Of a stretch of DNA of 64,000 bases, positions 405-64,000 are shown one piece after another. The stretch is from Prorocentrum cordatum. Its lineage: Eukaryota > Sar > Dinophyceae > Prorocentrales > Prorocentraceae. The notes under the pieces were generated by a model that saw nothing but the letters and a program-made list of their open reading frames with translations, did no database searches and was not told where the DNA came from. The position numbers and the translations under genes were made by a program. Numbering within the stretch: position 1 is the stretch's first letter; each line of letters starts with the position of its first letter. The stretch lies in NCBI GenBank assembly GCA_963575745.1, contig CAUYUJ010000336.1:1-64000 (forward strand). The letters run 5' to 3'.

Positions 405-436
<32 letters not shown>

Positions 437-1219: not shown

Positions 1220-1251
<32 letters not shown>

Positions 1252-2309: not shown

Positions 2310-3060
2310 CCAGGAGTTTTCTGGTTCTTCTGGTTCTTCTGGTTTTCAGGTGCCGACAAACAGGAGGTGGGGGAGCGGTGGGGCGAGGCCGCGGCGAGCA
2401 TTTCAGCTCCAGAAGCCAGAAAAACCAGAACAACCTGTGATACGCAGTGTTTCGTTGGTTCCCAGACCAGAAAAACAAGAACAACCTGTGATACACAGTG
2501 TTTCGTGGCCTCGGCCGAAACCGATATGCTTGCGCGCACGGTGCCCGTGACGGATGGGCCGAGCGGATGAGTTCGTCAGCCTGGATGGCAGGCCAAAGTT
2601 GAGTTTTGTATTCGTGCTTTGGGCGCTCTGGGGTAGTCCCCGAAGAGTACACAGTGTTTTCTTGCTCGGAGGCCACGAAACACTGTGTATCACATGTTTG
2701 TCTGGTTTTTCTGGTCTGGGAACCAACGAAACATTGTATATCACATGTTTTTCTGGTTTTTCTGGTTTTCAGGTGCCGACAAACAGGAGGTGGGGGAGCG
2801 GTGGGGCGAGGCCGCGGCGAGCATTTCAGCTCCAGAAGCCAGAAAAACCAGAAAAACTTGTGATACGCAGTGTTTCGTTGGTTCCCAGACCAGAAAAACC
2901 AGAAAAACCTGTGATACACAGTGTTTCGTGGCCTCGGCCGAAACCGATATGCTTGCGCGCGCGGTGCCCGTGACGGATGGGCCGAGCGGATGAGTTCGTC
3001 AGCCTGGATGGCAGGCCAAAGTTGAGTTGTGTATTCGTGCTTTGGGCGCTCTGGGGGGTC
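2310..3060. repeat. ~290-bp direct repeat pair with internal inverted repeats
   Basis: A block beginning CAGGTGCCGACAAACAGG recurs at 2347-2633 and 2770-3056 with a constant offset of 423 bp. Inside, 2462-2510 is nearly the reverse complement of 2671-2719 (CACTGTGTATCACA against TGTGATACACAGTG), and CCAGAAAAACCAG-type runs flank the arms, so a long hairpin can form. ORFs on both strands here are by-products of the inverted structure. It resembles a non-autonomous fold-back or MITE-like element; no transposase is seen. Confidence 0.7.
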
Positions 3061-3320
3061 GCTGGGGGGGGGGATCGACCATATATGTATAGCACAATCA
3101 CGGCATGACACATCGCAGTTCAGCACGGCGTAACACAGCACAGCCTTCGGCACAGTACATCGAAATCGATACATTCAGTATTGCATTTGCCCGTCGCCCA
3201 ATCAGGTGTTTTGAAACGTTGCCATGCCTTTCATGTCTATATTCCTTTCTGGGTTCGTGGGTCGATCATGTTTCAGGGACAACTCCTGAATAAAACCATC
3301 AAAACACACGTTTCGGTTAG

Positions 3321-3365
3321 ATTGCGAAGGCCTTACGGCCGGTACCGCCGACCCTGTAGACGACG
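3321..3365. repeat. Dispersed GCGAAGGCCTTACGG motif, copy 1
   Basis: About 41 bp, ATTGCGAAGGCCTTACGG followed by CCGGTACCGCCGACCCTG, also found at 9607-9647 and 14014-14055 in the same orientation. On the minus strand it reads YRVGGTGRKAFAI. It is followed by a GA-rich run (3366-3500). Confidence 0.65.
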
Positions 3366-3639
3366 CAGTTGAAAGGGAGGGGGGGGAGGTGCAGCGGGAG
3401 AAGGAGGAGTGGCAGGAGGAGGAGGAGGAAGGATTGCAGGAGGTGGATGAGGAGGAGGGGTGAGGAGGAGGAGGAGGAGGAGGAGGAGGAGGAGGAGGGG
3501 AGGAGCCTCTTGGAGCCTTGGTGGGGGTGTTGTTGGAGAGCTCCTGGGACGTCTAGGAGGCTTGTTGGACCGTCTTGGGGCCATCTTGGCCGTGCTGGGC
3601 CGATCTTTGAGCGACACGGGGCTCTTGTGGGCAATCTTG

Positions 3640-4540
3640 GGAGCCATCTTCATTGAGGCTGTTCGATATGTGAGGGCCGCCCGAGGAAAACGAATCTGGG
3701 TGGCGACCCCCCCGGGACCCCTCCCCGGGATCACTCCCTGGGACCCCCCCCCGCGGAGAAGGGATCAAAGGAAAGGGACTTCCCTTCGACTACAAAACGA
3801 CGTTGTACAATTTCACCTGGGATGGCACGCTTGAGGAGCAGGGGACAGGGGACAGGGACGACGGATACGGCGAGGAGGCGATCGTGAAGACGACGAAGAC
3901 GAGGAGACGACGGAGACGACAACTCGAACGGAGAAGCCCCTCGCACACGCCGACAGGGTCGGCGGATTTGAAAGACAAGGGAAAACCATGCAGATCCCAG
4001 GAAAACAACAGGAAAACCAAAAAACATAAAAAAGAGCACCGAAAGACATCAAAGACACCAGTTGTTTTCCAAGGACAATCCCTGAGCAAAACAATCAGAA
4101 TACAGATTTTTGTTCGTTTTTTTTGATTTTCTGTTGAATAATCGTTTCTATGGGTTGTATGTTTTTTGTTTCTCTGATTGTTCTGCTTCCCCCCCTCTGA
4201 TTTTCGGTTTTGTATTCGACTGCTACCCAACAGCACGAATTCAATTCACATTGCCACGGACCACTACAGCAAAAACCGCAAAAACACCGCACAGCACAAT
4301 CTCTGCACAGCATCGAATCGAAATCGCACAGCACATTCAAGTGCTTTGACGCCTACCACGTTTACCACCCTATTCCCCCTACTTCCAATCGCCCACTGAT
4401 CGCCGATAGTGCCTGATGGCCCCAACCTGCACAGGAAGGTGCGGTTTCACCATCGGGGGCCTGTCGCCCATCTAGCGGCGATGTATCGCCGATTCCATGT
4501 CGATGCATTCCCCCCTCTGCCAGTGTCCCCCTATCGTTGT
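3640..4540. other. No recognisable gene
   Basis: Mixed-composition DNA with AT-richer stretches (4000-4400) and short palindromic GGGACCCC runs near 3715-3755. No ORF with a recognisable domain and no RNA gene was seen. Confidence 0.5.
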
Positions 4541-4547
4541 CCCTCAG

Positions 4548-4917
4548 GTCTGGGACGCGGCGTCCGGCGCGGACCTCTGCGTTGCGGTGGGCGGCCCGAG
4601 CAGGGAGGTCAGGGACAAGCACGGCCATGTGCTACGCCTTGTGAGGGGCTACGGTGGCGATGTCCGGGCGGTGGCGGCTCGGCGCCAGTGGCGACTGCTT
4701 CGTCACCGGGAGCTTCGACCAGACGGCCCGGGGGTGGGAGGCGGCGTCTGGCGCAGACTTCTGCGTCGCGAGGGGCCGCGGCGGCCCCGTCGTGGCGGTT
4801 GCGGCCCTCGGCGCCGGTGGCGACCGCTTCGTCACCGGGAGCTGGGACGGGACGGTGCGGATCTGGGACGCTGCCACGGGGGTGCTGATCTTCAACGTCT
4901 CCAAGCACGGCGCTCTG
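4548..4917 (+). pseudogene. WD40-repeat fragment (frameshifted)
   Basis: The plus strand encodes parts of at least three WD40 blades. The first reads VWDAASGADLC from 4549; after a one-base frame change near 4670, the next reads GDCFVTGSFDQTARGWEAAS, and the last reads DRFVTGSWDGTVRIWDAATG. The GS-D-TVR-WD spacing is diagnostic of beta-propeller WD40 units, which act as protein-interaction scaffolds. A CAG precedes the first block, so it may be an exon start. Only a few blades of the usual seven are present and no start codon or complete ORF spans them, so this is an isolated exon group or a decayed or retroposed copy. A base-calling error at the frame change is an alternative. Confidence 0.65.
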
Positions 4918-5189
4918 GACTCTGGATTTGTATGGGCATCGTCGAGGCTGCCGCGGGCCTCTCGCAAGCGGTCGGGCTCGCTTTTGACGATGCCGTCAAG
5001 TGGAATCGCAAGGCCATCGCCCCGATCGCCGCTTCCGTTGAAAGAAGCCTGCTTGATTTCACCCCCCTATGGTGTTTCACCGGAGCTTCAATTTTACCCA
5101 GCTGCCTGCGGCAAGTCCCGCCGCCGTGCCTGCCCATCATGCTTGGCGGCTCTCTTTCGAGGGGACACCGGAGGGGCGTAGTGGATGTT

Positions 5190-5500
5190 CGTTGGTATCT
5201 CGTGGGGGCCTCTTGGGGCCTTTTGGAGGTAGTTTTGAGGCCTTTGGGAGGCCTCTTGGGGGCCTCTTGGGGCCTCTTGGGGGCCTCTTGGGGGCCTCTT
5301 GGGGCGTGCGCCTCTTCGGGCCTCCTGGGGGGCCCCCCCTTGGGGCGGAAAGCTCGGATTGTCAGTTCGTGTTCCCTCACTGGGGCTCCTTTTGGGGCCG
5401 TCTTGGGGCCGACTTGGGCGCCTCTTGGGCTGTCGCGTGGCGCTCCCAGGCCGTCCTGGGGCTCTCTTGGAGGCCTCTGGGGCCGTTTTGGCATGACCTC
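5190..5500. repeat. GGCCTCTTGGGG degenerate short-period repeat
   Basis: Many tandem copies of GGCCTCTTGGGG-like units about 12-16 bp long. This is the reverse-complement orientation of the CCCAAGAGGCCCC units at 1-1000, 10830-11150 and 55150-55820. It gives stop-poor ORFs in several frames but no protein domain. Confidence 0.6.
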
Positions 5501-6880
5501 GGGGTCCTCTTGGGCCTTCTTGGAACGTCGGAAAACCTAAGAGGCGAGAACGCCAACATCATTCAAAAACGCAAGCAAGGACAATCAATGATTTTTGTCT
5601 TTGGGCGCCCTTTTGGGGAGACTTTTTGGAGGTCTCTTGGGGCGCCTTGGAAGCCTCTTGCGTCATCTTGGGGCCATCTTGGGCGTCTCTGAGCGATATT
5701 TCGGCGACTCGGGGCGGACTGTTTTGGGGGTCTCCTTGGCCGTCATGGAAGCCTCGGAGGGCCCCGGGGAGGCGCCGTGGCCGCCCAGAGATCCCCCGGG
5801 AGCATGGGTGATGCGCGCAGCACGACGCGACCCAGAGGGGGGGGGGGGGGGGCGATTCGAATATTACAAAAGCCTTCAGCAATCTAGCGCGCCCCAACGT
5901 GCCAGGGGGCACGGTGGCGGATTGCAAGGCGTGTTGCGCTTTGTCAGCAGCGTTCGCGTATGTTCTTTTGGCAAAATATCGCAAGCTAGTATTCGTAGTG
6001 AAGATTTGTAGTGGGGCTTATGTGTGGCCCCACTGGTCGAGCAGTTGGCTTCGGTGGTGAATTGCCACGTCGTAAAGAGGCACCGTGTGGTCGACGTGGC
6101 TCCAGCTATTACTTGCTACACCGGGTTTCATCTGTACTTCTCCGTCCTTGCCGTAATCCTAGGGTTTTTGTTTGCCATGATCCTTCAATTGACCGGCGCG
6201 GTACGGGGAACCCTCTGCCGTCCGTCGGCTTGGCTCCCTTCATGTACATGTGAGGTGGCGCGCCAGAGTATGCAAAGTAACAGCTGCACAGTGCCTCGGA
6301 GGTCTTCTTTGGGCCAAAGAAGTGCGAGGGAAACCTGCGCGGCTTTCCGGAAGGAGGTTGGGGAGGGAGGGAAGGAGTGCGGGAGGGAGGGAGGAGGCAC
6401 AGACGGAGAACACATTCACATGAATGAGTGTGTATTGATCGACTAATGCTTCCCACCGTGGGGGTTACGGGGTGGAACCCTCGAACTCTGGCCCTGGTCA
6501 CGGGCGGGATGCCGCCAGAACCCCGCAGAATCCGCAGGAACCCTGCAGGAGCGCGGCAGCGCGCGGCTTCAGGCGACGCGGACGGCCTCAGGAGGCCTCA
6601 AGATGCCCGAGGTCGGTCCGATACAGGCCCGAGGGGACGCCTCCGAGTGGGCTAAGATGGCCTCATGGTGGGTCCAAGGTGGCCCAAGACGGCCTGGGAG
6701 CAGCCCACGGGGGCCCCAAGTCGCCCCCCGACACAAATTGTTAGCCCTCGAGGCTTCAGTCATAAACGGATCTGGGGTGAAGAGCTTCGCTGGATGGACC
6801 CCGAGAGAGGTTTCCGGGATCAATTTTGAGCGGATCTGCTCTTATCCGGGGCCCAGTCAGTTCAGCCCCCTTCTCTGCCT
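5500..6880. other. No recognisable gene
   Basis: Continues the GGCC-rich repeat to about 5800, then has unique-looking sequence with a poly-G run at 5838-5851. No domain-bearing ORF was found. Confidence 0.45.
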
Positions 6881-7118
6881 CTAGCCCGACCCCTGAACCA
6901 GGGGTAAAATCACAGTCTTGCTTACCAGATCCACCTCTGACGGGCCCGCGGCGACCACGAGGCCAAGATCGCGGAAGAGCCGCTGGTCGACAAAACCAGA
7001 TATCACCACCGCCGATTGACGAAACCACGTCGCCATTGCCATCGCCAGGCATCGGGCCCACGAGGCCGAGCTCGAGGAAAAACCGAGCGCTGACCAGAGC
7101 ACATCGCCGGAGGTCCGG

Positions 7119-7322
7119 TCACCCGCTTGGTGCGGCCACAAGCCAGATCTGCGCGCCGCCCTGGCCGTCCGCGGCCGCCGAGGACGTGAAGGCGAAGTAA
7201 CGCGGGAGGTCGATGCACCGGTTGCCCTCGATGCGGCTCTCTTGGACGCCCGCGAGCTGGATGCCGCGCGCATAGAAGAAATCATCCATGAAGATGTTGC
7301 GGGCCGAGTGCGCCTGCCCCAC
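7119..7322 (-). pseudogene. EEP (AP-endonuclease-like) N-terminal fragment of LINE
   Basis: The reading GIQLAGVQESRIEG matches the EEP motif in which a Q-E pair supplies the catalytic Glu that binds Mg2+. It is followed by YFAFTSSAAADGQGGAQIW, which fits the next beta strands seen in dinoflagellate LINE endonucleases. In an intact LINE this domain nicks target DNA to prime reverse transcription. The frame is lost just downstream (about 7118), and later motifs (GDxN, SDH) are absent, so the domain is inactive here. Confidence 0.6.
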
Positions 7323-7439
7323 TCGGTGCAGCTGCCAGGATTCATGCGGATCCAGTGTCTGGACATTCGCTGGCGATCTTGAAGTTCTCGACGTTCGTCT
7401 GGCCAGCTCGCTGTCGATGATAGTGCCACCGCTCGCGAT

Positions 7440-8336
7440 TTAGCCGGCGTCGTGGTCGTTGCCCTCGCGAGAAGTTACCGCTGATTTGGAGCGGATCGGG
7501 CCGTGGCTCGGGGGTGCGCTCTCCTCGCGAGGGGCTGGCCCGGTCGACCGCCCCCTCGAGGTCGGGTATGGCTGGCTGTCCCCCGAGGCCCGGAAGTACT
7601 TCAGCAGGGACGCTTGGTAGGTCGGCATGGTCTGCTTGCCCTGCAGCCGCCACGGGGGGTCCCGAGGAGCGTCCTCCCCCAGGACGGGCGGCCCCTCGCT
7701 CGAGTGTCGGTGCCTGGGGCCCTCCGCCCGGAGGAGATTGGGCCGCTTCTGCGCCTCCTGCATGGTGGCCTCGAAGCGCTTGAGGAGAATGTCGCCCTGC
7801 TTCGTGGCCTCCTCGGGAACGGATGCGTCCACGCCGACGAGCTGCTGAAGCTGGTGGACGGCCGCTTGCATTGACTCATGGAGGGCCTCGATCGGGGCCT
7901 TCAGCCTGCAGTCCGTCTCCTTGTCCTTTGCCGTAGCCACCAGGGCCTCCAGGTCGGCAAGCTCCGCGGTCAGTTGCTTCACCTCTTTCTCCGCCGCGGA
8001 GACGGCCTTGGCGGCCAGCTCCTGAGCCACCTTGGCCTGCGCTAGCTGCCGCTGCCCCCGGGTCAGCGCGTCCTTGCAGCCGTCGTACCTCTGGCCGAGG
8101 GGCTTGTCCGCGCGAATGATTTTGCGGTGCTCCCGTATCTGCTGCTGGATCCCTTGCTTTACGACGTCGTGCTCGGCGCCCACCAGCGCGGCCGCTGCTG
8201 CCTCCATCTGGGAGATCATGATCTGCCTCTGCGCAGTGGTGTAGTCCGCGGCGGAACTCGAGGCTCCCGACGTCGTCGTGGCCTCGGGGGGGGGTGGCAG
8301 GCTCTCGGGAGCCGCTGCATGTAGCATCGCCGCCAC
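7440..8336 (-). CDS. LINE ORF1-like coiled-coil protein (fragment)
   Basis: This 298-codon ORF has a low-complexity Ala/Pro/Ser N-terminus, then a long charged helix-prone region from about residue 30 to 185 (for example KAVSAAEKEVKQLTAELADL) predicted by eye to be a coiled coil, and a disordered tail. Coiled coils in LINE ORF1 proteins mediate trimerisation and RNA binding. The frame upstream is open with a CxxC half zinc finger but is cut by a TGA, so the ATG at 8336 may be only an internal Met. The downstream EEP piece at 7322-7119 supports the LINE assignment. No nucleic-acid-binding motif is seen inside the ORF. Confidence 0.5.
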   Translation of the reverse strand: MAAMLHAAAPESLPPPPEATTTSGASSSAADYTTAQRQIMISQMEAAAAALVGAEHDVVKQGIQQQIREHRKIIRADKPLGQRYDGCKDALTRGQRQLAQAKVAQELAAKAVSAAEKEVKQLTAELADLEALVATAKDKETDCRLKAPIEALHESMQAAVHQLQQLVGVDASVPEEATKQGDILLKRFEATMQEAQKRPNLLRAEGPRHRHSSEGPPVLGEDAPRDPPWRLQGKQTMPTYQASLLKYFRASGDSQPYPTSRGRSTGPAPREESAPPSHGPIRSKSAVTSREGNDHDAG

Positions 8337-8789
8337 GGTCTGAACTTGCGCTGTAACGCCGCCAGTCCCCTTGCGGGGGGGCAGCAGCCGTCGTCGAAGA
8401 ACTCGGATTGAAGTTTTTTTCGCTCCACAGTGGGAGCACTTGGTCTTGGGCGTCCAACGTTGTGTACCGATGACCTTTCAGTTCCATGGTTTGGCACCCC
8501 ACGAGGCTGCACCTCCGCTCCAGGTCTGGCCGTTCTTGGTCCAGCTGCCATCGACTTGCTGCACCCAGCCTTGGTTGCGCCACTGATTCTGATCCCAGGT
8601 CATCCTGAAGCTGGTAGGACACGGCCTGGACGCGAAGAGCAGCGCTGATGCCCGCGCTCAGCACCGGGAGGGCAAGAAACATGAAAGACCCACAGGTCGA
8701 GTTATGGAAAGAATCGCCAGCGATCGTGGACCGGGTGTAGATTGAGGTGTCTCGGCCGCAGCTTGCTTGGCTGAAGCTTGAGCCAACAT

Positions 8790-9056
8790 GGATACGGATG
8801 ATGAGGAGCATTATGCTGCTGATGATGATGATGATGATGGTGCTGATGCTAATGCTGCTGATGCTGATGCTGATGCTGATGCTGCTGCTGATGATGATGA
8901 TGATGATGATGATGATGACGATGATGATGCTGATGATAGTGATGGTGCTGGTGCTGGTGCTGATGATGCTGATGCTGATGCTGATGCTGATGATGCTGAT
9001 GCTGATGATGATGATGGTGATGGTGATGATGATGGTGCTGATGCTGATGATGATGG

Positions 9057-9098
<42 letters not shown>

Positions 9099-9179
9099 CG
9101 CTGATGATGATGATGATGATCTGGATGACGATTATGGTGATGATGATGATGCTGATGCTGATGCTGATGATGATGATGG

Positions 9180-9229
<50 letters not shown>

Positions 9230-9300
9230 GTGATTGTGATGATGATGAGGAGGAGGAGGATGCTGAGGGTGAGGAGGATGATGATGATGAAGATGATGAG
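8790..9300. repeat. (GAT/GCT)n microsatellite
   Basis: About 450 bp of GATGAT with interspersed GCT and GGT triplets. It produces poly-Asp/Ala, poly-Met and poly-Ile/Ser ORFs in different frames, none with other sequence complexity. Confidence 0.9.
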
Positions 9301-9606
9301 GATTGGAAGGAGGAAGCAGAGGAGGGTGGGGATGAGGATGAGGATAGGGCTGAGGGCGAAGGCAAGGGCAACGACGATATCGAGGAGGAGGAGGAGGAAC
9401 CTTGGTAGGAGGCAGGAGGATGAGGAGCAGGAGGAGGCAGAAGGAGGTGATGGTGGTGGATGTGGTTGAGTAGGCGAGCGAGGAAGCAGGAGGAACATGC
9501 AGAAGGAGGAGCCGACAGGAAGAGAGGTGGGAGGAGACGGAGCCGGCAGGAAGGGAGGCGACGACGACAGGGGATGACTGTGATGTTGAAGAAGCTGGAA
9601 GTAGTT

Positions 9607-9647
9607 ATTGCGAAGGCCTTACGGACGGTGCCGCCGACCCTGAAGAC
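9607..9647. repeat. Dispersed GCGAAGGCCTTACGG motif, copy 2
   Basis: Matches copy 1 (3321) and copy 3 (14014) over about 41 bp with few substitutions. The minus-strand reading is FRVGGTVRKAFAI. It lies between the GAT repeat and a GA-rich tract. Confidence 0.65.
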
Positions 9648-9649
9648 AG

Positions 9650-10180
9650 CGACGACGAGGATGTTGAGGAGCAGGTGGCGGAGGACGCTCGGGAGCAGGA
9701 GGGGTGAGGGAAAGGAGGAAGAGGTGCGAGGGGGGAGGAGGAGGACGAGGAGGGGGGCGAGAGGGACGGGGTGGGGAAGACGAGGAGGGGGGGAGAGCAG
9801 GGGGGAGAGCGAGGCGATCAGGGACGTATTTGCAGGGGAAGGGCGGCTGACAAGGAGGAGGGGCAGCGGTGGGTAGAGCGTGGCGAGCATGAGCAGCAGG
9901 AGACGGAGGAGGAAAGTAATGGCGATAATGTTGATGATGATGATGATGACGCGGATGATGTCGGTGATGATGACGATGATGATGTCGTTGAGGGAGGGGG
10001 GGTGTAAAGCCAGCGGCAGGAGAAGTCGGAGGAGGAGGAGGAGTAGGAACGTCAGGATGATGGTAATGAGTGGGAAGAGGAAGGAGACGAAGCATAGGGG
10101 CTGAGGCCGAGGAGGAGTAGGCGTAGGAGGCGGAGGAGGAGGAGGAGGAGGAGGAGGAGGGCGAGCATGGGGAGGCTCAC
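9650..10180. repeat. GA-rich simple-sequence tract
   Basis: Mostly GAGGAGG-type purine triplets with a GAT patch (9930-9990). Long ORFs on both strands are repeat artefacts. Confidence 0.7.
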
Positions 10181-10829
10181 GAGGTTGAGGAACACAAGGG
10201 TGAGGGTGCACACATACTCTTGTGCGGAGTGGTTCCCCGGAAAGGCAGATGGGGGACACGGACGACGTGATGACGACCACGACGACGACGATGACGACTA
10301 CGACGCTTACGACGACGATTGACAACCAACTGTTTTTTTGGCAGCGCGTCCGTGGCCGAAAGAGGAAACGGAGGGTCAGGAGAGGGAGAGAAACGGGAGT
10401 GGTGGACGTCCCCAGAACATAGGAAGCGAGCCCTCGGGGTGCCTCCGAACCGATGTCCAGGAGAGTTGGGACAGTCAGGGAACTGTAGGAGCAAGAAAGG
10501 GGCAGCCGTTATCTGTCGACTGAGGAGGAGGATGGAGCAGGAAATGGAGGAGGAGGGATAATGAGAAGGAAGAGGCTGAGGAGAAGGAGGAGGAGGAGGA
10601 GAGCCAGCAGAAGGCCCGAAGCTTTTGACTGCCTCTCGGAGTCTCTTGGGATGTCTCTTGGTGGATTTCTTGGCAACCCATGGCCGAAGACGGCGAGCTG
10701 ACGGCCCCAGAGGTCCCCGATGAAGCTTCCGAAAGGCCAAAAGCATCAAGCACGCATGGCTTTCTCAACACTGTTATCATTTACGTTATGTTGCTTTCGC
10801 AGCAGCCAAGACCGCCTCTGTGGCCCCCA

Positions 10830-11150
10830 ATATTGTCCAGAGACGGTCCAGGAGGCCTCCAAGAGCATCACCACAGCCCAAGGCGGCGCCAAGATGGCCC
10901 AAGAGGCCCCCAAGACGAGCCCAGGAGGCCCGTGAGACGTCCCAAAGACGCCCAAGAAACGCCCAAAGACTTTCGACAGAGGGCTCCAAGAGGGCCTCCG
11001 AGGGCGTCTGTCGGACCGCGAGCGCTCTAAGGCAGCCCAAGGGGCCACCCAGAGACCCCAACAGGTTTTCAAAAGGCTCCAAAAAGACCCCAAGAGGCTA
11101 CCAAGAGGCCCCCAAAAGCTCCCCCAGAGGGTCCAAATAGGTTCCAACGA
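10830..11150. repeat. CCCAAGAGGCCCC degenerate short-period repeat
   Basis: Same unit family as 1-1000 and 5190-5500, here in the CCCAAGA orientation. No gene is seen from 10180 to 12890 that I can support. Confidence 0.6.
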
Positions 11151-12890
11151 GACCCGCCCCCAAACCATACCAATTGGACGAGATGAGAGCTTGAAGACGG
11201 CCCGAGAAAGCCACATAACTGCTTAAGAAGCCGTTCGGATAGTTCAGGAGGCCCTCATGATGCTTGCATTGTTTCGCATTGAGGCGTATGGGTGTATCCT
11301 TACATTTAATGTGTGCCTGTTGGGTCCGCAGTCTTGCTACTTATTCGCGGCAACAGTGGGTAACCACTGGAGTGCAGTTGTGAGTTGGCCACGGACTGGG
11401 CCTTGCTGGAACCCAAGCGCGCACGAGGCGCGCGCGTGGTTCTGGTCCACATGTGTTTTGCCAAGACCTTGAATTATCACAGCACGTCGGACCAACATGT
11501 ATCCCCCCTTCTCCCAAATTCAAGGTTGACGGGTTTAGGCGGTAGGCTGAAAGCCAGGGACAAAATGTGGACACTTCAACTTTGGGTTTCGGGGGGAGGG
11601 GTGCGAAGCAGGGGCATTTCGCAGTTGTGGCTGTTATCATGTTGCGTTGCCTTACCGCCATGGGTGTGGACATTGTTTGTCTGGGCGCCGGCGGCCCCAA
11701 ATCGCTTTCGAGAGATGTCAGACAGCCGTTCAGGCGGCCCTGGACGGCCCCAAGTCACCCCCAAGGCGGCCTCCAAGGGTTTCAGAGGCTGCAGACGCCT
11801 CAAGAGACGACGCTCAAGACAGCCCCGACGGCCCCAGGAAGCACTCCAGGACGCCTCCGGGAAGGCCAAAACCTTCAAATCCAATGGCCAATGCGAGATC
11901 TATGATTTTGCCTTCTCGCCTTGTCGCTTCCGATGGTCTGCTGAGTTCGCAAGTCCGCCCCCAAGGCGCCCCCGCAAAGCTCTGTGGCCATTTCAGCTCA
12001 AGTCCTCTCCTTGTTTGACCGCGTGTTCCCAGTCCTGCGACGGCAAGTCCGCTACGCGCGATGTCGCTGCAGCACAACATGGCCCGCCTTCGCAGCGCCG
12101 AACAGTCTGCGAGTCGTCCTTCACGTTCTCCGTCATCGACCTCAAGCAGAGCACTCAGTCTCGCCCTCCTCTCACGGAGGAGGAGCTCACCGCCTTCAGG
12201 CCGCCCCCTCGGTGCCCCGCAAACGGCAGTACCGCCGAGCTTCAGACGGCGGCGGACGAGCCGATACGCTGGGCGGGGGCGGCGGTCTTGGCGCTCCGCA
12301 GGAACCCCAGGTCCACAGAGTCTCAGGAGTCGGAGAGGGGAGAAGCGACGCCAACACCACCCAGGGGGCCACCTCCAGCGTGTAGGCTGGGGACTGCTCG
12401 AGCGAGAGGAATGACCGCACCGCCAGGGGGGCCCCTTTGCTCCTCGCATCTCCTCGTCCTGGTGGTGTTGGCGTCGCCTCCCAGAGATCCGACGTCGTGG
12501 TATTTTTCAACGCGGGGTCCCTGGAAGTTTCGACCCATTCCCCAGGACCGGCTTTTCATTTTGAGTCGTTTTTAGACGCTCCCGAGGCCCGGCGAGGTCT
12601 TCTAGAGACCGAAAGCGGCGAACAACTCCCGTCTAGGCGTTTTCAACACGTTGGATCTCTGGGCCCCCTCGCTCCCGCAGAAGCGCGCCGCCGCGGAGGC
12701 CACGGGGCCCACAGTGCCCGTCAGGGGGGCAGCGCTCGCGGGCGCCTCGCTCCGGCCGGGGGCCCGGGCGTGCAGCTCGCTTTCCGGGGGCGCGCCGCCG
12801 AGCTCGTAGGGCGGAGGCGGGGGCGCGCCGCTCGCAGGGCGCAGGGGCGGTCCAGCGCGGCCTGCTGGCGCACAGATCGCGTTTCGGCGT
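11150..12890. other. No supported gene; GC-rich open frames
   Basis: Several frames stay open for more than 300 codons (for example 11385-12575 on the plus strand), but none shows a domain and competing frames look equally plausible. It could contain exons of an unrecognised gene. Confidence 0.35.
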
Positions 12891-17054: not shown

Positions 17055-17240
17055 TGTGGAATCATATGGCTCCCTCTCGTCCTGACTATCCGTGCTTTTC
17101 TGTGTTTGTGTCTGTTGTATGCTTGCTTGTGCACAGCGCCGTGACTGACGCTTTGGCTCAAGCCATTCTGTGTGCGTTGAGTGCAAAGGCATCCCTTTCA
17201 GTACATTTTGCGATGGCCGCCTGAACCCGTCGTGCCCACA
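17055..17240 (+). repeat. 5' LTR of copia element
   Basis: 186 bp, begins TGTGGAATC and ends GTGCCCACA, the canonical TG...CA termini. It matches the 3' LTR at 184 of 186 positions. At 17152-17162 it contains TTTGGCTCAAG, identical to the last 11 nt of the dinoflagellate spliced leader. Confidence 0.95.
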
Positions 17241-25832: not shown

Positions 25833-26018
25833 TGTGGAATCATATGGCTCCCTCTCGTCCTGACTATCCGTGCTTTTCTGTGTTTGTGTCTGTTGTATGC
25901 TTGCTTGTGCACAGCGCCGTGACTGACGCTTTGGCTCAAGCCATTCTGTGTGCGTTGAGTGCGAAGGCATCCCTTTCAGTACATCTTGCGATGGCCGCCT
26001 GAACCCGTCGTGCCCACA
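25833..26018 (+). repeat. 3' LTR of copia element
   Basis: 186 bp, 98.9 percent identical to the 5' LTR (two transitions), TG...CA ended and followed by the ATGTC target duplication at 26019-26023. It has the same spliced-leader-like 11-mer at 25930-25940. Confidence 0.95.
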
Positions 26019-40330: not shown

Positions 40331-40367
40331 CATTTCCTTAGCCCTTTGTTTGGCTGGAGCGGTGAGC

Positions 40368-42044
40368 ATGGCAAGCATGCCGAGCGCACCGCAAGTGCCA
40401 CGCACACCGCGGTGCCATCCCGTCGTTGGCGATCTGGCAACGGCTAACAAATGGGCAGAACATAATTTGGAGCGGGCGTTGGCGTATATCCAGGAGTGCA
40501 AGTGCGGCGTCGGCGTCGACGATATCGCTCACGAAGCCGAACGTCTTTCTTTATCGACATCGTTCAGCGGCACGGGCGGGGCAGAGATCGCACGTCATGG
40601 CGGGGCCCTTTGTCTCGGGCACATGCGTGGCCGACTTCTTCGATGCAGGACGTTGTGGGCGTGCGATAGCGACGATGAGTGCAGGTTCGAGCTGCGAGTG
40701 TTGCCAGAACCACCTGAATGCGTGCTGAACAACGTCATCGCGTGCATCCGCCCTGACGTTCGGAGCGATCTCATTCAGCATGCGCCCAATATGAGGTACG
40801 ACAGGCTCCATGAGATCGCGAAGAATAGAAACTTGCTCCTTGACAGGTGGCCCAGAGGCTGCTGCGCTATGCACCCCGATCAAGACTGTGCTCTGCAGAA
40901 AGCCGACATTCATGCGGCGGGCACAGAGTGCCCCACGTGGTCGGAACAAGGGACGAAGGACGGGTGTTCTGGCACGAGAGTTCTAGCGTGGATAAGTTGG
41001 GTTGCGTTGAGGAGGAAAATCCAAGAACCAATCATTTATCATGAAAATGTACCAGAGTTTCCGCTGAGCCTCTTGGAATCAGAGCTTGGGGATCTTTATC
41101 TGGTGATGCCGCAATTCAGCCACGTCGTCTGCCCCAGCAAGTACGGGCAGCCGTGCGAGCGGCCGAGGCGTCTCACGCTTCTATGGCACAGGGGCCTGAT
41201 AAAACACAGCCCCGACAAAGAGGCGCTGCTCACCCAGAGGTCGTGGCAGGAGTACGCGGCCATGGCCGAGCGCACTTACACAATTACGTGGGAGGCTTAT
41301 TTCGTGGCCGACGACGATGACGAAGAGGTGAGGCGAGAGCTTGCTTGGTCGCTCCAGCGCCCAGGCTTGAAGCAGGATATGCAGAAAGCGCCTTCGAGTC
41401 GACCAGATCGGGCGGCGTGGGAGCAATCGGCCTTCGACAAGTCGCTGAACGATTGGGAGGTCCGCAACATCATCAAGTACGAGGTTCTCAACGATCACAG
41501 GCCGATGATCTGCGCCGTGGGGCAGAGTGCAGACAAGCACGCTACGCACAGCAAGGGCAAGCCTACCATGATGACAATCATCAGGAAAAACGACATGTAC
41601 TACAGCAGCAAGCACCGCAGGTGGCTCACGCCCAGCGAACTGCGCACAGTGCACAACTACGTTGGCGACTCGCTGTGCCAGTGGGGGCTGCAAACGTCTT
41701 TCAGTTTCAAGAGGGAGGACTTCGGCTTCCCCCCTCGCCGTCGGGTCGCAACGCTCCACCAGATCGGGAACGGCATGGCGTTGTGCACGGAGTCCCTCGG
41801 CTTCTACTTCATATGGGCAGTGATGGCCGCCTTGCGCGAACCTGGCGCAGGTTCAGCGAGCGTGGACATGACCGACAGCTCCAGCCACTCAGCCAGCTCC
41901 AGCAGCGGCATCGCCCAAGCGCTCGCGGCCGCTCGCCAGCAGGGCGCGCCCAAGAGGAGGAGGCTGCGCAAGGGCACGCCATCTGATGTGGAGAGAGCTG
42001 CTTCGGTCCTCAGTGAATTGATGCGCCCTGGAGGCCAGGCATAG
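40368..42044 (+). CDS. C5-cytosine DNA methyltransferase-like protein
   Basis: 558 residues from the ATG at 40368 (MASMPSAPQ) in one uninterrupted exon. Family motifs appear in order: motif I SFSGTGGAEIA (about residue 63), an acidic strand LWACDSDDECR, motif IV GTECPTWSEQG with the candidate catalytic Cys at residue 188, motif VI IIYHENVPEFP (Glu at 226), motif VIII YGQPCERPRRL, motif IX RRWLTPSELRTVHNY and motif X LHQIGNGMAL. Enzymes of this family transfer a methyl group from S-adenosylmethionine to C5 of cytosine in nuclear DNA. The usual PPC of motif IV is TEC here, so activity is not assured. The tail is Ser/Ala-rich with a basic KRRRLRK, a possible nuclear signal. A DNMT2-like tRNA enzyme or a retroelement-derived copy are alternatives. 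Confidence 0.85.
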   Translation: MASMPSAPQVPRTPRCHPVVGDLATANKWAEHNLERALAYIQECKCGVGVDDIAHEAERLSLSTSFSGTGGAEIARHGGALCLGHMRGRLLRCRTLWACDSDDECRFELRVLPEPPECVLNNVIACIRPDVRSDLIQHAPNMRYDRLHEIAKNRNLLLDRWPRGCCAMHPDQDCALQKADIHAAGTECPTWSEQGTKDGCSGTRVLAWISWVALRRKIQEPIIYHENVPEFPLSLLESELGDLYLVMPQFSHVVCPSKYGQPCERPRRLTLLWHRGLIKHSPDKEALLTQRSWQEYAAMAERTYTITWEAYFVADDDDEEVRRELAWSLQRPGLKQDMQKAPSSRPDRAAWEQSAFDKSLNDWEVRNIIKYEVLNDHRPMICAVGQSADKHATHSKGKPTMMTIIRKNDMYYSSKHRRWLTPSELRTVHNYVGDSLCQWGLQTSFSFKREDFGFPPRRRVATLHQIGNGMALCTESLGFYFIWAVMAALREPGAGSASVDMTDSSSHSASSSSGIAQALAAARQQGAPKRRRLRKGTPSDVERAASVLSELMRPGGQA

Positions 42045-57277: not shown

Positions 57278-58770
57278 TCACTGCTCGAGCGTCTCTAGCC
57301 AGTGGCCTACCTCCTCCTCGGGCCAGCCCACTGGGGCCACGCCTCGGTGGTGGACCGCCTGGCCCTCCCACATGGGCGCGCCGATCACCAGCTTCTGCTT
57401 GGTGTCATCGTAGCGGTGCCCGAGCCCTTCGAGCCCTGGGAGGGGCCCAGTGGGAGTCGCCACGTCGCTCTCCGCTTGGCCGTCGTCCCCCTGTCCAGGG
57501 AGAGTAGGCGTAGAGGAAACATTAGCCACTCGGATCGCCCGCGTGGGCGCTACATATACTGCTGCTGGGCGCCGTGCTGCTTGTAGCCGTCGAAGTGGTC
57601 GATGTTTAGGTATGCTGCGTAGGTCGCTGCCCGCGATGTGTTCCACCGACTGGCAGTTGGACGCGCTTACATCATGGGTGTCCTCGATGGCGGGCGAGGG
57701 ACGGCATCTGGATGGCGCAGGGCGCGGCGGGGGAGCACTTGGAGTGGCCGAGCGCGTGGTAATCCGTTTCTGGCACGACCTGATGTTGCACTCGAAGGTG
57801 GGGTTTGTCTCGTCGTCGGTGTCCGTCCCGTCGTGCGTTGTCGCCGAGAGGAGGGAAGAGTTGCTCACGCTGGCCTCGGGGGGAGCCCACTGATCCATCT
57901 TGACAACTCGGAGGGCCTCCTTGTCTTTGCTAATCTCGGCGTAGGCATCGTTGAAAGAAGACGCACGGTGGGCGCCCGTCTGGAGCCCAGCAGCAAGTAG
58001 GCCATAGTCCCAGCGGGTGTTGTTGCTCGTGATGTTGGCGCCGCTGACAGGCATCTTGATCTGCATAATCATGGGGATGTGGTCGGCAACATGTAGTAGG
58101 CTACTTAGCTTGGTGTGGGTCTTCCAATTCAGCTTCACGTGCTTCACGATTTCCATGAAGTTGTCGCGGCCGATGAAGTAGTTGATGCTTGATCTGGCTT
58201 TGTTGTGCCCGTAGTAGGTATTGCCGACGTCGATGTGCATGTTGATGGCTGTCAGCTGATGCGTCAGGAACTTGTCGTGAATCAAGCGTCCGAGCTCGGT
58301 CTCGTCGCTGGGTTGGTAGTTGCCGATTGCGTTGTCGGTGCGGCGCTGTCGTGATCGTCGTCCTGGCCCTTGGTTGAGGTCCGTGAACAGGATGGGCATG
58401 ACGCGAATAGGGATGTCGGCATGTGCCTGCGGTACCCAGCTCCATGGTCGGCGGCATCCTGCTTTCCAGTGTTGGTAATGAACTGCTCCGTTCGGCCGCG
58501 GTGGGGAATACGCAGCAGTGAGTCGAGAGCGGAGCTGGCCTCGATGAAGCTCGACGGCGCCCGCGCCCCGTAGGTCAGATTGCGGGGGGTGCCGTACCTT
58601 GTCGATGTCTATCTTGCGGCTTTGGCGCTTGGATACTGCGATGCTGCGACATACTGAGCTGCCCGTGTGTGCCCCGCGACCCCCTCCGAAATGGACCCAT
58701 GTATGATAGCGGCGGTCCTCGAAATGACGCGGGGCGTCGGTAGTGCACTGGCGGATCTTAATGCCTGCGT
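57278..58770 (-). pseudogene. LINE endonuclease (EEP) domain fragment
   Basis: Read on the minus strand from about 58765 to 57870. The sequence GGGRGAHTGSSVCRS, then VELHRGQLRSRLTAAYSPPRP, then ILFTDLN (GDxN-like), then INMHIDVGNTYYGHN, SINYFIGRDN and VADHIPMIMQI (DHxP) reproduces the second half of an exonuclease-endonuclease-phosphatase domain as found in dinoflagellate non-LTR retrotransposons, which nick target DNA. The ORF stays open to 57278 with a Thr/Pro-rich tail, but the N-terminal part with the Q-E motif is missing and no reverse transcriptase follows. The region upstream (58840-59800) is tandem repeat. I infer a decayed or domain-only copy. Confidence 0.7.
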
Positions 58771-58839
58771 ACATCATAGTCTGATGTGCACGGCATGTGT
58801 CGGAGATGTGGTCGAGATGCCCTGGGACATCCAGTAGTC

Positions 58840-59800
58840 CTTCGCGAGCTGGGTGTGGATGTAGTGGTCCAGGTGGCAAGTCACGTTCGGCGTGCAATTC
58901 TTCCACTGGTAGTAATTCAGGAGTCGCGTGGTGTGATCCTGCATTTGCTGGCCCTCTGTGTTCTGCCTCGATGTCCTCGGTCTCCGCTCGGTGCAGCCGG
59001 TTCCGAATGGCACCTTCCATGGAGCCGCCCACGTCACACTTGTGCAGTCCTTCCAAGATCGCCAGCGCGAAGGGGGGGCGCTGGCGACCCTATCTCCTGC
59101 AGGCGTTTCTTGTCCTCTGGGGTGTCGCTCTTCCTGAGGGGGGAGTCCAGGGTGTACTTGTAGCCTTCGGTCTCCTGCGTGATGGCTATGATCCCTGTGA
59201 GCTCTTTCCTCATCGTGTAGGTGCCCGTATTGCTGCTGCCATTCAGCCTGGTCTTGTGCGTCGTCTGAAGCAGCATGTGGCAAGTCACGTTCAGCGTGCA
59301 ATCGTTCCACTGGTGGCAATTCAGGGGCCGCGTGGTGCAGTTCTGCATGTGTTGGCCCTCTGTGTTCGTGAGGGTGTTGAAATTGAAGCTCAGCGTCCTG
59401 TAGTTCGGGGTCAGCGTGTCGTAGTCCTGTCTGTGCTGGCCCTCTGTGTTTGTGAAGATGTTGAACTTGAAGCTCAGCGTCCAGTCCTGCACGTACTGGC
59501 CCTCTGTGTTCGTGAGGATGTTGAATTTGAAGTTCAGCGTCCAGTCGTTCAGGGTCAGCGTGTTGTAATCCTGCATGTGCTGGCCCTCTATGTTCGTGAT
59601 GATGTTGGAGTTGATTTTCAGTGTCCAGTAGTCCTTCGCAATCAGGGTGGGGTAGTCCATCTGGCCAGTCACGTTCAGCGTGCAATTGTTCCACTTGTGG
59701 CAATTCATGGACCGCGTGGTGTGCCTGTGCTGGCCCTCTGTGTTCGTGATGATGTTGAAGTTGAAGCTCAGCGTCCAGTAGTTCAGGGTCAGCGTAGCGA
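58840..59800 (-). repeat. In-phase tandem repeats upstream of the endonuclease
   Basis: CCCTCTGTGTTCGTGA-type units start at 58952, 59356, 59440, 59500, 59584 and 59734. The last four spacings are 84, 60, 84 and 150 bp, all divisible by three. On the minus strand one frame (59849 to 59034) reads repeats such as FNFNIITNTEGQH and CTLNVTG. A longer unit with TCACGTTCAGCGTGCAA recurs at about 58890, 59285 and 59670. Confidence 0.75.
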
Positions 59801-60395: not shown

Positions 60396-60589
60396 CTGAT
60401 GCTTCCACCCCCCAGACCACCGGGAGGACGAGGGCGACGACGAGGGCGAGGTCGAGGAAGAGGAAGGCAAGGAATAAGAGGATGAGGAGGCGGAGGAGGA
60501 GGGAGGCGACAGGCGCTGCCCGCCGCGCGCGCCGCGGCGCCCCCCGAGGGAAACGGGCGGGGAGACGGAATCGGACGGGAGGGAGGAAG

Positions 60590-60726
60590 AGGGAGAGGAG
60601 GGAGGAGGAAGAGGAGGAGGAGGAGGAAGAGGAGGAGGAGGAGGAGGAGGAAAACGAGGAGGAGGAGGAGGGGGGGGAGGAGGAGGATGAGGGGGAGGAG
60701 GTGGAGGAGGAGGAGGAGGAGGAGGC
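60590..60726. repeat. GAG triplet run
   Basis: GAGGAGG run ending exactly where the spliced-leader copies start. Confidence 0.9.
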
Positions 60727-60770
60727 TCCTTGGCCATTTTGGCTCAAGTCCGTAGCCATTTTGGCTCAAG
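60727..60770 (+). other. Tandem dinoflagellate spliced-leader (DinoSL) sequences
   Basis: 60749-60770 is an exact 22-nt DinoSL (TCCGTAG then CCATTTTGGCTCAAG). 60727-60748 is the same 22-mer with two changes (TCCTTGG). DinoSL is added to mRNA 5' ends by trans-splicing, so a genomic copy means the downstream sequence came back into the genome from a trans-spliced mRNA; two copies mean this happened twice. The next bases are TATACC, not the GT donor expected in an SL RNA gene. Confidence 0.9.
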
Positions 60771-60848
60771 TATACCATTTCTCGAGGTGGCTTACAAAGA
60801 AAGCTAAGTGTTCTCGCGCTCATTCAATCCCTGGTTGCGCCTGGTGGC

Positions 60849-61274
60849 ATGCAGTTCTCGTTTGGTGGAGGTTGGCGCCAAGGTGGCGCGCCCAGGTGCG
60901 ACAAGTCCAAGGTGCTGTGCCCTTCCTGCTGGTGTAAGAAGAACTCGTTCGGCACCTCCCATTGCTACCACTGCGCTGCTCCTCTCCCTGCTCTTGGCTT
61001 TTCTGGCCCGAGCCGTCCTGCTGGCGCGTGGTCCCAGTGCCCTCCAGGCGTCTTCCACGCATCCCAGCTCTCTGCTGGCGGCCTCATGCAGTCTGGCGGG
61101 GGGGGGGGGGGCAAGGGCCGGGTTGGCGGTTGGGGCGGGGGATGCATCGGCGGCAAGGGTGTGTCGGGTGGCGGCGGCGTGCGGGAGGGAGGTCCCGCAG
61201 GCGGTGGCTCGCAGAGCGTTGCCAAAGGGCGCTGGTCGTTGCGGGGGCACGCCACCACTGCCCTCGAGACCTGA
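60849..61274 (+). CDS. Zinc-ribbon ORF1-like protein of LINE
   Basis: The first ATG after the spliced leaders opens 141 codons. Residues 24-43 carry CPSCWCKKNSFGTSHCYHC, a C-x2-C ... C-x2-C zinc ribbon suited to nucleic-acid binding. After residue about 80 the protein is Gly-rich and crosses a 14-G run (61098-61111); in the alternative frame after that run the sequence continues to 61422 (for example ISAEEAEQLAAMTAKAGG), which looks more protein-like. The true ORF1 therefore probably changes frame at the G run, through sequence error, indel or slippage. Confidence 0.55.
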   Translation: MQFSFGGGWRQGGAPRCDKSKVLCPSCWCKKNSFGTSHCYHCAAPLPALGFSGPSRPAGAWSQCPPGVFHASQLSAGGLMQSGGGGGGKGRVGGWGGGCIGGKGVSGGGGVREGGPAGGGSQSVAKGRWSLRGHATTALET

Positions 61275-61439
61275 ACCCGCCATTTCAGCCGAGGAAGCAG
61301 AACAGCTCGCGGCCATGACGGCCAAGGCAGGGGGCTCCACGACGGCCCAGAGGTGCACAGATGATGCCAAGCACCCCAGGCTGCCCAGCGCGCCCCCGCA
61401 GAGCAGCCTCTGCACCATCTAGTCAATGTTGCTCGCGGC

Positions 61440-62410
61440 ACGGTCAAGCGTCTGAGAAGAAGATGGAGGTCGACCTCGGTCGCGTTCTACGTCTACGTCG
61501 GGAATTGGCTGAACATGAAGACAAGCTTCGTGATGCTGGAGAGTCTTTGGTGCAGGCTTGGCGGAGTACAAGTCCCTGGTGGTCAAGCTCAACCAGGAGG
61601 CATCCAGCGGCCCCTCGGAGTCGTTCCAGCCCGTTCCTGTGTTCAAGCTCATCGCCCTCGCCGGCCTCGTCGAGGGCCAGGTGGATTTCCCCTCTCCCAT
61701 CTCGCGCGACCTCCTGGAGTTCAGCAATTCGTCTGATGATTGGGGACCCATCTCGGAGGACCAGCGAGACATTGGCAAGCGCAAGAAGGAGCTTACTTAC
61801 GGGGCCCAGTCACTGGCTCACAAGCTGTTCAAGCAAGTTGTGGATGGATCACGCTCGGACGCAGAAGCAAGCTCGCACTACTACCTCACGTGCGCGGGCA
61901 AGAGGAAGCGTCGCGCGGAGGCGGGTGCTGCTGCTGGAGGCGGGGTCGAGGTTCCAGGGGCTGCGGCGGCAGGTGACGGCGGCGAATTGGCGTCCGCAGG
62001 TGATTCGGGGTCCAGGGCAGCGGGCACTGAGCCTTCGGCGGCCGCTCCCAGCGATGAAAAGCCTGCGCAGGATGTGCGAGACAAAGTTGATGCAGCGTTG
62101 TCCTGCGCCCCCCCCCCCCCCCCCCCCTCTGCCCCCCCCCTCCCCTCTCGCGCGGGGAGGGGGGGGGGGGGCATCACCACATTGGCGCGGCTGTGCTGGG
62201 GTTTTCTCAGAGTCTGCGATTTCGTGCTTTGCGTTTTTTTGTTTGCGGATAGGCGGTCGAGCATGGACTCCCTGTCCAGGCTTGCTGGCATCCGTTTGTT
62301 CAAACGTCGGAGGGCTGAGTTTCCTGGTGGGGCCCTGTCTGGGTGCCAGGCTCACCCTGCCACAATGGCGCCGCAACAGTCAGGGCTTCCAGGCACGGCC
62401 CACGATGCCG
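61440..62410 (+). pseudogene. ORF1 continuation: charged coiled-coil region
   Basis: EVDLGRVLRLRRELAEHEDK (near 61470) and LAEYKSLVVKLNQEASS (near 61560) are helical, but in different frames. Then GKRKKELTYGAQSLAHKLF and an Ala/Gly-rich basic tail lead to a 20-C run. Heptad-like spacing supports an ORF1 coiled coil. Frames are broken, so no intact protein is encoded as sequenced. Confidence 0.45.
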
Positions 62411-62469
62411 CCCCCCCCCCCCCCCCCTCCATTCCACCCTCCCTACTGCTGCTCCGGCTGTTGAGCCGC

Positions 62470-63230
62470 CGGGAAGTTTCGAGCTTTTCTTCGAGGGGGT
62501 CTCGATCACTATGGCTAGCTGCAATGTTCGGGGCGCTCTGAAGGGGCACTTGGAGGCTTCAACTGCGATGGTCATTTTGGGCTCGGAGCTTCGGTTGATG
62601 GAGCTAGCTGGCTTCGGCGGGGCGTCAGCCTCGACTCGTGAGCTTGGTTGGAAGAGTGCATGGTGCCCTTGTATCTCTGGCCCTGGAGGAGGGGTCTGCT
62701 CTGGCACTATGTTTTTTGTCCGCGACGCGTGCGGCGGCTTCGAAGTCTCCCAGGCGGTGCTCTTCCTTGGCCGCGCTGTTGCCAGCATGGTTCACGCACT
62801 TGGTTGCGAGGCCTTCTGCGTCGTCTCGCTGTGTCTGGTCCGCACTGAAGGCTTGTCGGAGGGTAATCTTGAAATTGCGATGGAAGTTGGAGCGTTCTTG
62901 TCCTCCAATTGGTTTGAGTTTGTGGTTTGTGGGGACTGGAACCTCGCTCCCGAGGTCTTACAGGATTCGGATTTCGACAAGGAGCTCTCGTGCCAGATCG
63001 TAGCCCTTGGGATGGACACGTGTTTTCCCTCATCGCCCCCCCCCCGTTTTTGTTGTGCATCTACTGGTCTGCCCTAGGGGGACGAACGAGTCGAAGTGGA
63101 TGCGAAGGCCTCGACCTCGCCTCACTTTCCCGCCACCCTGAGCTTTTACCCATCCCTGTTGGACCTCAAGTCTCTCGCTTTCCGCGCCCCCCCCCCGCTC
63201 CCTGCGGGCCCCCCTCGGAATTGGAGCGCG
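62470..63230 (+). pseudogene. EEP endonuclease domain of LINE
   Basis: In the frame that is open 62343-63077, after a Pro-rich start: TMASCNVRGALKGHL (EEP strand 1), GGGVCSGTMFFVRDA (the GG-x-A-x-x-VR strand), LGCEAFCVVSLCLV and FEFVVCGDWNLAPEVL, the GDxN motif with catalytic Asp and Asn. After a 10-C run the other frame gives TSPHFPATLSF, corresponding to the terminal S-D-H-x-P motif but with Pro in place of Asp. The enzyme would nick DNA for target-primed reverse transcription. The expected QE motif appears as VILGSELR, so a key residue may be lost. Confidence 0.65.
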
Positions 63231-63359
63231 GTGTTGGGGGGTGGCCCAGAAGGGCGCCGACGCTGTTTCTGGGTGGATTTTGAGAGAGCTGTTTTCGTGT
63301 TGGACTCAGGTTACAGGTTACAGCCTTTGGGCCAACACGGCGGAGTCTGAGTTGGGTTC

Positions 63360-63740
63360 TGTCATGGGCGTCGAGGCGCCAGGTGCAGGTGCGCGCGGCA
63401 AGAGGCCGCAGATGCACTGGCGGTCGGTGCCCGAGCCCTCTGGCCGCTTTGGGGACGCCAAGCAGCGCCCCATCTTCTGGCTGCGCTCGCAGATGCGCGC
63501 GCTGCAGTGTTACCTGAGCGACTGGGAGATCAGTTCGGCGTCTGTTTCCCTGGACCCTGGGCCTCCTGTTCGACAGGTCCTTCTCCGTCTCAGGTCCCCT
63601 GACCCCTCGGTCTCGCCCCATGTTGATGACGACTATCTCCCAGTCTTTCGCTGCCGCCAGCTTAGCTTTGCGCGGGTTGGCGCTCGGCCAGGATGGCCGT
63701 CATCTGTTCTTTTTGGAGTTAAGGGAGCTTATCGATGAGG
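63360..63740 (+). pseudogene. LINE linker before reverse transcriptase
   Basis: Open frame reading SLWANTAESELGSVMGVEAP and RGKRPQMHWRSVPEP. The W-x-x-x-AE-x-L ... GRG-x-P pattern is one I associate with the segment between endonuclease and reverse transcriptase in dinoflagellate LINE polyproteins. No catalytic motif is present. Confidence 0.4.
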
Positions 63741-64000
63741 TGAGGGATCTGTCTTCTAAGGCGCGTGCTGCTGCATAGCTTGGTCCGAGCCTCTTGGAAT
63801 GACTGGCTGGAAGTCGGTCTGGGCAACGCGGGCCGTAGGGTCCACGCCGCGTTGAGCGATCCCGAGCGTTGGTCCCCCATTACCACTCTGTCCTCCAGGG
63901 GTTCTGTCGTCGCGGATCCGAAGTCTTCATTGAAAGCTGAGGGGGTGAGTTTCATCGGATTGTTTTGTTTGGGGGGGTGGGGGTGGCGATGGGCCGCGGG

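Follow-up and report, generated by a model that had tools for sequence, protein, structure and literature searches.

Positions 1 to 64,000 of the forward strand of contig CAUYUJ010000336.1 (Prorocentrum cordatum, assembly GCA_963575745.1), the stretch of DNA analyzed here and referred to as the window, carry two adjoining copies of the dinoflagellate spliced leader (DinoSL) shortly upstream of the ORF of a LINE-like element. A source on DinoSL relicts of recycled dinoflagellate mRNAs is reportedly Slamovits and Keeling (2008). The question raised by this locus is whether such a relict can mark a retroelement itself, with the leader becoming part of the element and being acquired again in repeated cycles, as was suggested in a preliminary description of the sequence.

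Two adjoining leaders at the 5′ end of the first element

When all 22-mers of the window were scored against DinoSL on both strands, four sites reached at least 18/22: 60749 (22/22), 60727 (20/22), 8798 on the minus strand (20/22) and 11981 (18/22). Simulated windows (n = 60) contained a mean of 0.017 such sites each and none at ≥19/22, and chance origin of the window matches, being negligible by simulation, is ruled out. The copy at 60727 abuts the copy at 60749 with no gap, and the inner leader is full, not cut after its internal AG, which makes this a full+full stack. The body of the first element begins at 60771. The double leader described earlier before a zinc-ribbon ORF is real, with the ATG lying 78 nt past the inner copy. 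This spacing is a plausible 5′ UTR, as is the 173 nt between leader and ATG in a second element of the window (8798–7140, minus strand); the usual leader-to-ATG length given in the consulted portion of a review is 50–100 (PMC6050394), a range that the 173 nt exceed.

None of the four window copies is followed by a GT donor, and an SL RNA gene at the window leaders is excluded on this ground. An Rfam scan of the whole window was blank. A GT donor is present at an SL-RNA-gene-like copy elsewhere (L003, 4334–4354, minus strand), where DinoSL is followed by GTACGC and AATTTTTTGG and eukaryotic rDNA was recognized by eye next to it. The contig is assigned to a Dehalococcoidia MAG; L003 is probably contamination, with the leader belonging to an SL RNA gene of alveolate origin.

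SLACS, CZAR and NeSL are LINEs of other lineages that insert into SL RNA genes, and their existence gives some initial appeal to the idea that the window leaders are a fragment of an SL RNA gene, or the trace of an SL-gene-inserting LINE, beside an unrelated ORF. However, all four window copies differ from L003 in lacking the donor, the leader is whole with a repeat on its 5′ side, and the same boundary recurs at unrelated places, as described below. This explanation is scarcely credible; neither the flanks nor the position after the leader shows an insertion inside an SL RNA gene, in the window or in either family.

Coding content of the first element

The features of both elements are collected in Table 1. 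In the ORF of the first element, CPSCWCKKNSFGTSHCYHC matches the Pfam double zinc ribbon with an E value of 0.025, below the cut-off. The window copy has broken frames and continues beyond 64000. An ordered series of endonuclease motifs, drawn up post hoc with the sequence already known, is found in 1 of the 981 window ORFs, that of the first element at 62319–63077, and in 0 of 100000 shuffles. This endonuclease frame had no match in Pfam, in two protein-database searches or in PDB sequences, the last giving only unrelated sub-threshold rows. A fold search with a poor-quality endonuclease model yielded no useful match, with no AP-type endonuclease among the matches listed. Alignment of an AP endonuclease to the first element is weak: its score was equalled or bettered by 142 of 3000 shuffles, and by 1104 of 3000 under looser gap settings. 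The short fragment of the second element gave nothing. Reverse transcriptase (RT) motifs of the first family were recognized by eye past the window, where Pfam was blank. The LINE label of the window copy would accordingly be read from its motifs, the by-eye RT-like motifs past the window and the dispersed family taken together, and is weaker from the window alone. Scans of IMG/VR found no protein relatives and no exact full+full leader tandem. Near the first element, LINE-like ORF regions of another kind were noted by eye at 57278–59056 (minus strand) and, outside the window, at 4781–7675 of L039 (plus strand); Pfam was blank for them.

Table 1. Features of the two leader-bearing elements in the window
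Feature	Position	Strand	Evidence
(GGA)n microsatellite, directly 5′ of first element	60582..60725	+	Tandem Repeats Finder; GGA-type purine-rich flanks at six siblings
Outer DinoSL copy, 20/22	60727..60748	+	22-mer scan
Inner DinoSL copy, 22/22, without GT donor after it	60749..60770	+	22-mer scan
5′ UTR of first element, 78 nt	60771..60848	+	Alignment to sibling copies
ORF1 N-terminus, CxxC-CxxC zinc ribbon	60849..61274	+	ORF list, Pfam sub-threshold, motif
Remaining ORF1, frame-shifted, decayed, with homopolymer C/G runs	61319..62541	+	Homologous copies
ORF2 start, endonuclease-like motif series	62319..63077	+	Motif; Pfam none
ORF2 onward, beyond window end	63078..64000	+	RT-like motifs farther along contig (C336, L039), by eye; Pfam none
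(TCA)n-type microsatellite, 5′ of second element	8820..9299	-	Repeat scan, flank inspection
DinoSL copy, 20/22, 5′ end of second element	8777..8798	-	22-mer scan
5′ UTR of second element, 173 nt	8604..8776	-	Leader-to-ATG distance
ORF1 of second element, multicopy, one in-frame TGA (8480-8478)	7440..8603	-	ORF and genome matches
Endonuclease region start, second element	7140..7439	-	Homology with longer copies lost near 7140

The leader marks the boundary of the first family

A genome search with the body of the first element as query, without the SL, returned nine rows, in which L070 is the window itself and L078 is the same place as L072, each place being counted once. Copies were taken as 5′-complete if the body alignment reached within 104 nt of the body start. 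In all seven 5′-complete copies (the window copy and L071–L076, the siblings being 67–80% identical), DinoSL lies near the body boundary, and for each of them 0 of 1500 shuffles were as good. The proposal that the relict marks the retroelement itself and that the leader is part of the element is borne out by these copies. L077 and L078 were left out of this count; L077 starts at body base 506 and has no SL (1261 of 1500 shuffles as good). Full-length copies running upstream without SL, set beforehand as the observation that would speak against the proposal, were sought in the matches of both families, and none was found.

The sequence preceding the SL is purine-rich and of GGA type in every 5′-complete copy of the first family. 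Against a clean triplet repeat at all of these junctions, the period-3 score just 5′ of the best SL reaches only 0.47 in the window copy, where the outer SL lies, and 0.50 in L072. The (GGA)n tract next to the window copy is likely the insertion target of the first element. Since the upstream flanks share no similarity after low-complexity masking, these copies appear to be separate insertions and not copied loci.

The stacking of leaders at this boundary varies from one to three across the family. A single leader is present in L072, in addition to the full+full stack of the window copy. A full leader followed by a truncated one is seen in L073, where the inner leader is truncated directly behind the internal AG, and in L074, where the cut is one base off; L071 and L075 also appear by eye to be full+truncated, with a decayed inner part. 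In L076 two truncated leaders come after the full one, and the inner cut again lies behind the internal AG. Truncation after nucleotide 7 is described, in the part of PMC3229502 consulted, as the product of re-splicing at the AG of the old leader, and inner leaders shortened in this way at the internal AG are the expected trace of repeated trans-splicing. That independent insertions carry stacks of different height points to leader-bearing copies having themselves gone through transcription, trans-splicing and a further round of copying, in agreement with the repeated cycles proposed earlier.

A different origin of these leaders has to be weighed, in which the SL belongs to the encoded 5′ UTR, where it might act as a promoter, and is inherited with the element and not re-added by trans-splicing. 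It would account for the same location of the leader in the 5′-complete copies, and a promoter role of genomic DinoSL has been proposed in the section seen of PMC6050394. However, inheritance alone leaves the variation between one and three leaders unexplained, and the inner cuts, which in L073 and L076 follow the internal AG directly and in L074 lie one base farther on, also argue against it. We regard this origin as very unlikely when taken alone; inheritance of an encoded SL and trans-splicing may act together.

For the window copy, the double leader could instead have arisen by a local 22-bp tandem duplication after insertion. Its full+full stack does set it apart from the siblings, five of six of which have truncated inner leaders and one a single leader. 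Against such a duplication, the repeated unit coincides with the 22-nt leader at both ends, full+full-like stacks were found by eye elsewhere in the genome (L057, L060), and the stacking in the siblings fits trans-splicing. The duplication is unlikely, and successive trans-splicing is the preferred reading for the window stack as well. The preliminary description also attached weight to the upstream copy being the diverged one, the reverse of the usual order. This is not supported: there are two substitutions, both in the outer copy, an outcome with a probability of roughly 1 in 4, and the siblings split 3 versus 2. Five siblings with stacks can be compared by eye: the inner relict has changed more in L071, L075 and L076, and less in L073 and L074.

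A second family with an SL-like boundary

The window copy of the second element is cut short, since its homology to longer copies stops near 7140. Its ORF1 protein has a relative at 93% identity across 75% of its length. The genome contains 27 matches of this family, among them the window copy (L013) and a near-identical duplicate (L012). Copies were considered 5′-complete when the body alignment, again with a query lacking the SL, came within 36 nt of the body start, which holds for the window copy and L016–L020 (L027 and L019 being one locus); the other matches start at least 228 bases into the body and were excluded. An SL-like junction after a TCA- or TCG-type run is present in 6/6 of these copies, with 0, 21, 0, 9, 0 and 0 of 4000 shuffles as good, and the expectation of a leader at the boundary is upheld in this family too, with two junctions weak (L016 and L018). 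Within the 17 of 27 matches inspected (L012–L028), the incomplete copies have SL scores of at most 10, unshuffled, some of them beside N. Once low-complexity sequence is masked, the upstream flanks have no similarity to one another. L040 is bordered by a TCA run at its 3′ end as well, which places this copy inside the repeat. Any target-site duplication is obscured when insertion occurs within repeats.

Both families have the same properties: dispersed copies, a common 5′ boundary and unrelated flanks. Duplication of whole loci at the DNA level is excluded by the unrelated flanks, except for L012/L045. L045 (contig C14321) is a 99.7% duplicate of ~9.8 kb within window positions 1–11000, either an allele or a recent duplication, and was not counted.

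Longer relatives of the second family contain the RT motifs AFDS, GARQGC and YVDD (by eye). In all three ORFs covering the RT region, RVT_1 is the sole or best Pfam match, with E values of 0.0011–0.0026, below the cut-off; the endonuclease-region ORF, one of the four proteins of the family given to Pfam, had no match. Pairwise dN/dS values, as point estimates, lie between 0.54 and 0.87 in all 28 pairs of eight second-family copies, and copies that were once functional and are now decayed would fit these values.

The decay of the window copies and of the inspected second-family copies could also be taken to mean that the copies are dead ends, in which LINE mRNAs were retroposed by other machinery in the manner of host mRNAs and the SL-bearing copies stand outside the element's own cycle. 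Host retrogenes do bear the same mark, according to the text available from PMC6050394 and PMC12014239. On the other hand, the SL is found on each 5′-complete copy, and stacks of two or three leaders require that an SL-bearing copy served as the source at least once. We consider dead-end copying quite unlikely, and a cycle that passes through leader-bearing copies remains the preferred reading.

DinoSL copies and triplet repeats across the genome

With up to 3 mismatches, DinoSL occurs at 48069 places in 4.13 Gb, about 1 per 86 kb, compared with 121 for the reversed pattern. In a sample of 28 exact sites, the first listed and located on three contigs, a period-3 repeat, mostly of TCC or GGA type, adjoins 22, and 6 are without one; in the control, drawn from the window alone, 6% of 3000 random 40-mers score as high. 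GT follows the leader at two of the 28 sites (L063, L067). Full+full-like or triple stacks were seen by eye at three sites of this sample (L055, L057, L060).

Among the eight SL sites with longer sequence, three have the zinc-ribbon pattern within 1 kb downstream, as do 0/24 upstream or antisense stretches at the same sites and 16/400 random window stretches. Two of these three, L068 and L069, were read further. In L068 a 1201-aa frame, with no stop before the available stretch ends, shows endonuclease- and RT-like motifs by eye, and L069 has a short RT-like motif, also by eye. Pfam detected neither endonuclease nor RT in L068 and L069; in L068 it gave a sub-threshold RNase_H match (E 0.044) and a coiled-coil match. 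A large share of the genomic DinoSL copies may be 5′ ends of LINEs.

Other leader-like sequences

Several further leader-like sequences were noted. The relict at 11981–12002 (plus strand) differs from DinoSL by four transitions and lies inside an ORF. At 40335–42044 (plus strand), a DNA-methyltransferase-like ORF (PF00145, E 0.006, below cut-off) is preceded by a decayed SL-like stretch whose start lies ~33 nt ahead of the ATG; its score was matched in 6 of 3000 shuffles and in 14 of 1276 window stretches, true SL sites among them. Like the copy at 60727, this stretch has G changed to T at leader position 4.

The window also contains a Ty1/copia element with a 2310-aa ORF (RVT_2), flanked by LTRs of 186 bp at 17055–17240 and 25833–26018 with 2 differences and a 5-bp duplication, ATGTC. 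Its LTRs contain TTTGGCTCAAGCCATTCTG, which resembles the end of an SL fused to a relict in truncated form (0/5000 LTR shuffles as good, 29/5000 for the SL alone, and 1/40 in window-wide nulls). Judging from this resemblance, the RNA of this element may also be trans-spliced.

L001, an AT-rich virus-like IMG/VR contig (14–19% GC), holds a 254-aa gene in a stretch of 48% GC (1939–2913, minus strand). Two exact DinoSL copies stand in front of this gene, an arrangement that looks like the capture of a dinoflagellate mRNA in cDNA form.

A proposed cycle of leader acquisition

The SL stands at the 5′ end of each 5′-complete copy found in two families, and these copies have unrelated flanks of repeat type and, in the first family, varied stacks. 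As judged from sequence comparison, we propose, with a probability of about 0.87, that the elements are non-LTR retrotransposons that would use their trans-spliced mRNA as genomic RNA, have it reverse transcribed together with the leader, insert at trinucleotide repeats and be spliced again in a later round.

Transcription from upstream would enter an element copy, and the spliceosome would add a fresh DinoSL, either at an AG before the old leader or at the AG within it (TCCGTAG). The leader-bearing RNA would then be reverse transcribed up to its extreme 5′ end and inserted, presumably in a target-primed manner, at a trinucleotide microsatellite picked by the element's own endonuclease. A full-length copy would then read microsatellite, SL, 5′ UTR and ORF1. 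With successive cycles the leaders would pile up, use of the internal AG giving full+truncated and use of one immediately before the old leader giving full+full. The inferred parts of this scheme are that splicing took place, that flanking transcription was used, that copying ran to the extreme 5′ end of the RNA, that insertion was target-primed and that the endonuclease selected the target.

A broader proposal, which we put forward tentatively and at somewhat less than even odds, is that most of the ~48000 DinoSL copies are 5′ ends of microsatellite-targeting LINEs that have no fixed promoter, depend on flanking transcription and receive a capped, translatable 5′ end from the spliceosome in each cycle; the stack would then be a cycle counter, and the same machinery would write host mRNAs back into the genome. 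Recycling of host mRNAs by these LINEs is plausible.

Comparison with known systems

Dinoflagellate retrogenes, the recycled mRNAs of these organisms, carry DinoSL relicts and stacks cut after nucleotide 7, as described in the parts consulted of PMC3229502 and PMC7245778. The elements reported here resemble them in having a DNA copy of the leader at the 5′ end, with relicts stacked and truncated. In contrast to the retrogenes, the marked unit here is a LINE, the mark is on each 5′-complete copy found in two families, and trinucleotide repeats accompany it. For integrated dinoRNAV copies in Symbiodiniaceae, DinoSL was reported within 500 bp of 6/26 RdRp ORFs and LINE-mediated retroposition was proposed (PMC10235124, in part); there the marked unit is a viral RNA, whereas here it is the LINE itself. 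SymbioLINE is likewise a dinoflagellate LINE with ORF1 and an RT ORF, and the section seen of its report does not describe a 5′ SL (PMC5890265). No description of dinoflagellate LINEs starting at DinoSL was found in the openly licensed literature, among the matches listed.

In Schistosoma mansoni, six cases of SL-containing retrotransposons have been suggested, with chimeric assembly not excluded (PMC5832876, in part). As here, genome-encoded SL is merged to transposable elements, and that text likewise proposes elements that are trans-spliced and retro-transcribed. The present elements differ from those six cases in their family-wide boundaries, unrelated flanks and leader stacks. L1Tc of Trypanosoma cruzi and Cer1 of C. 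elegans are also retroelements in hosts with SL trans-splicing. In the passages available, L1Tc RNA is produced from the Pr77 promoter without SL (PMC4748587), and the 8-kb RNA of Cer1 is not trans-spliced, a 2.4-kb mRNA existing both with and without SL1 (PMC3315495). Unlike these full-length RNAs, the copied RNA of the P. cordatum elements evidently bore the leader, to judge from the genomic copies. In both other SL-using hosts that were checked, the full-length retroelement RNA is without a leader; here the leader is part of the copied unit.

The element that drives the heavy recycling of mRNAs in dinoflagellates is given as unknown in the consulted part of a review, which leans toward LTR elements (PMC6050394). 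LINE families bearing this same scar of the leader at insertion sites of repeat type make a LINE source of mRNA recycling directly testable, and the leader stacks could act as a built-in record of retroposition cycles.
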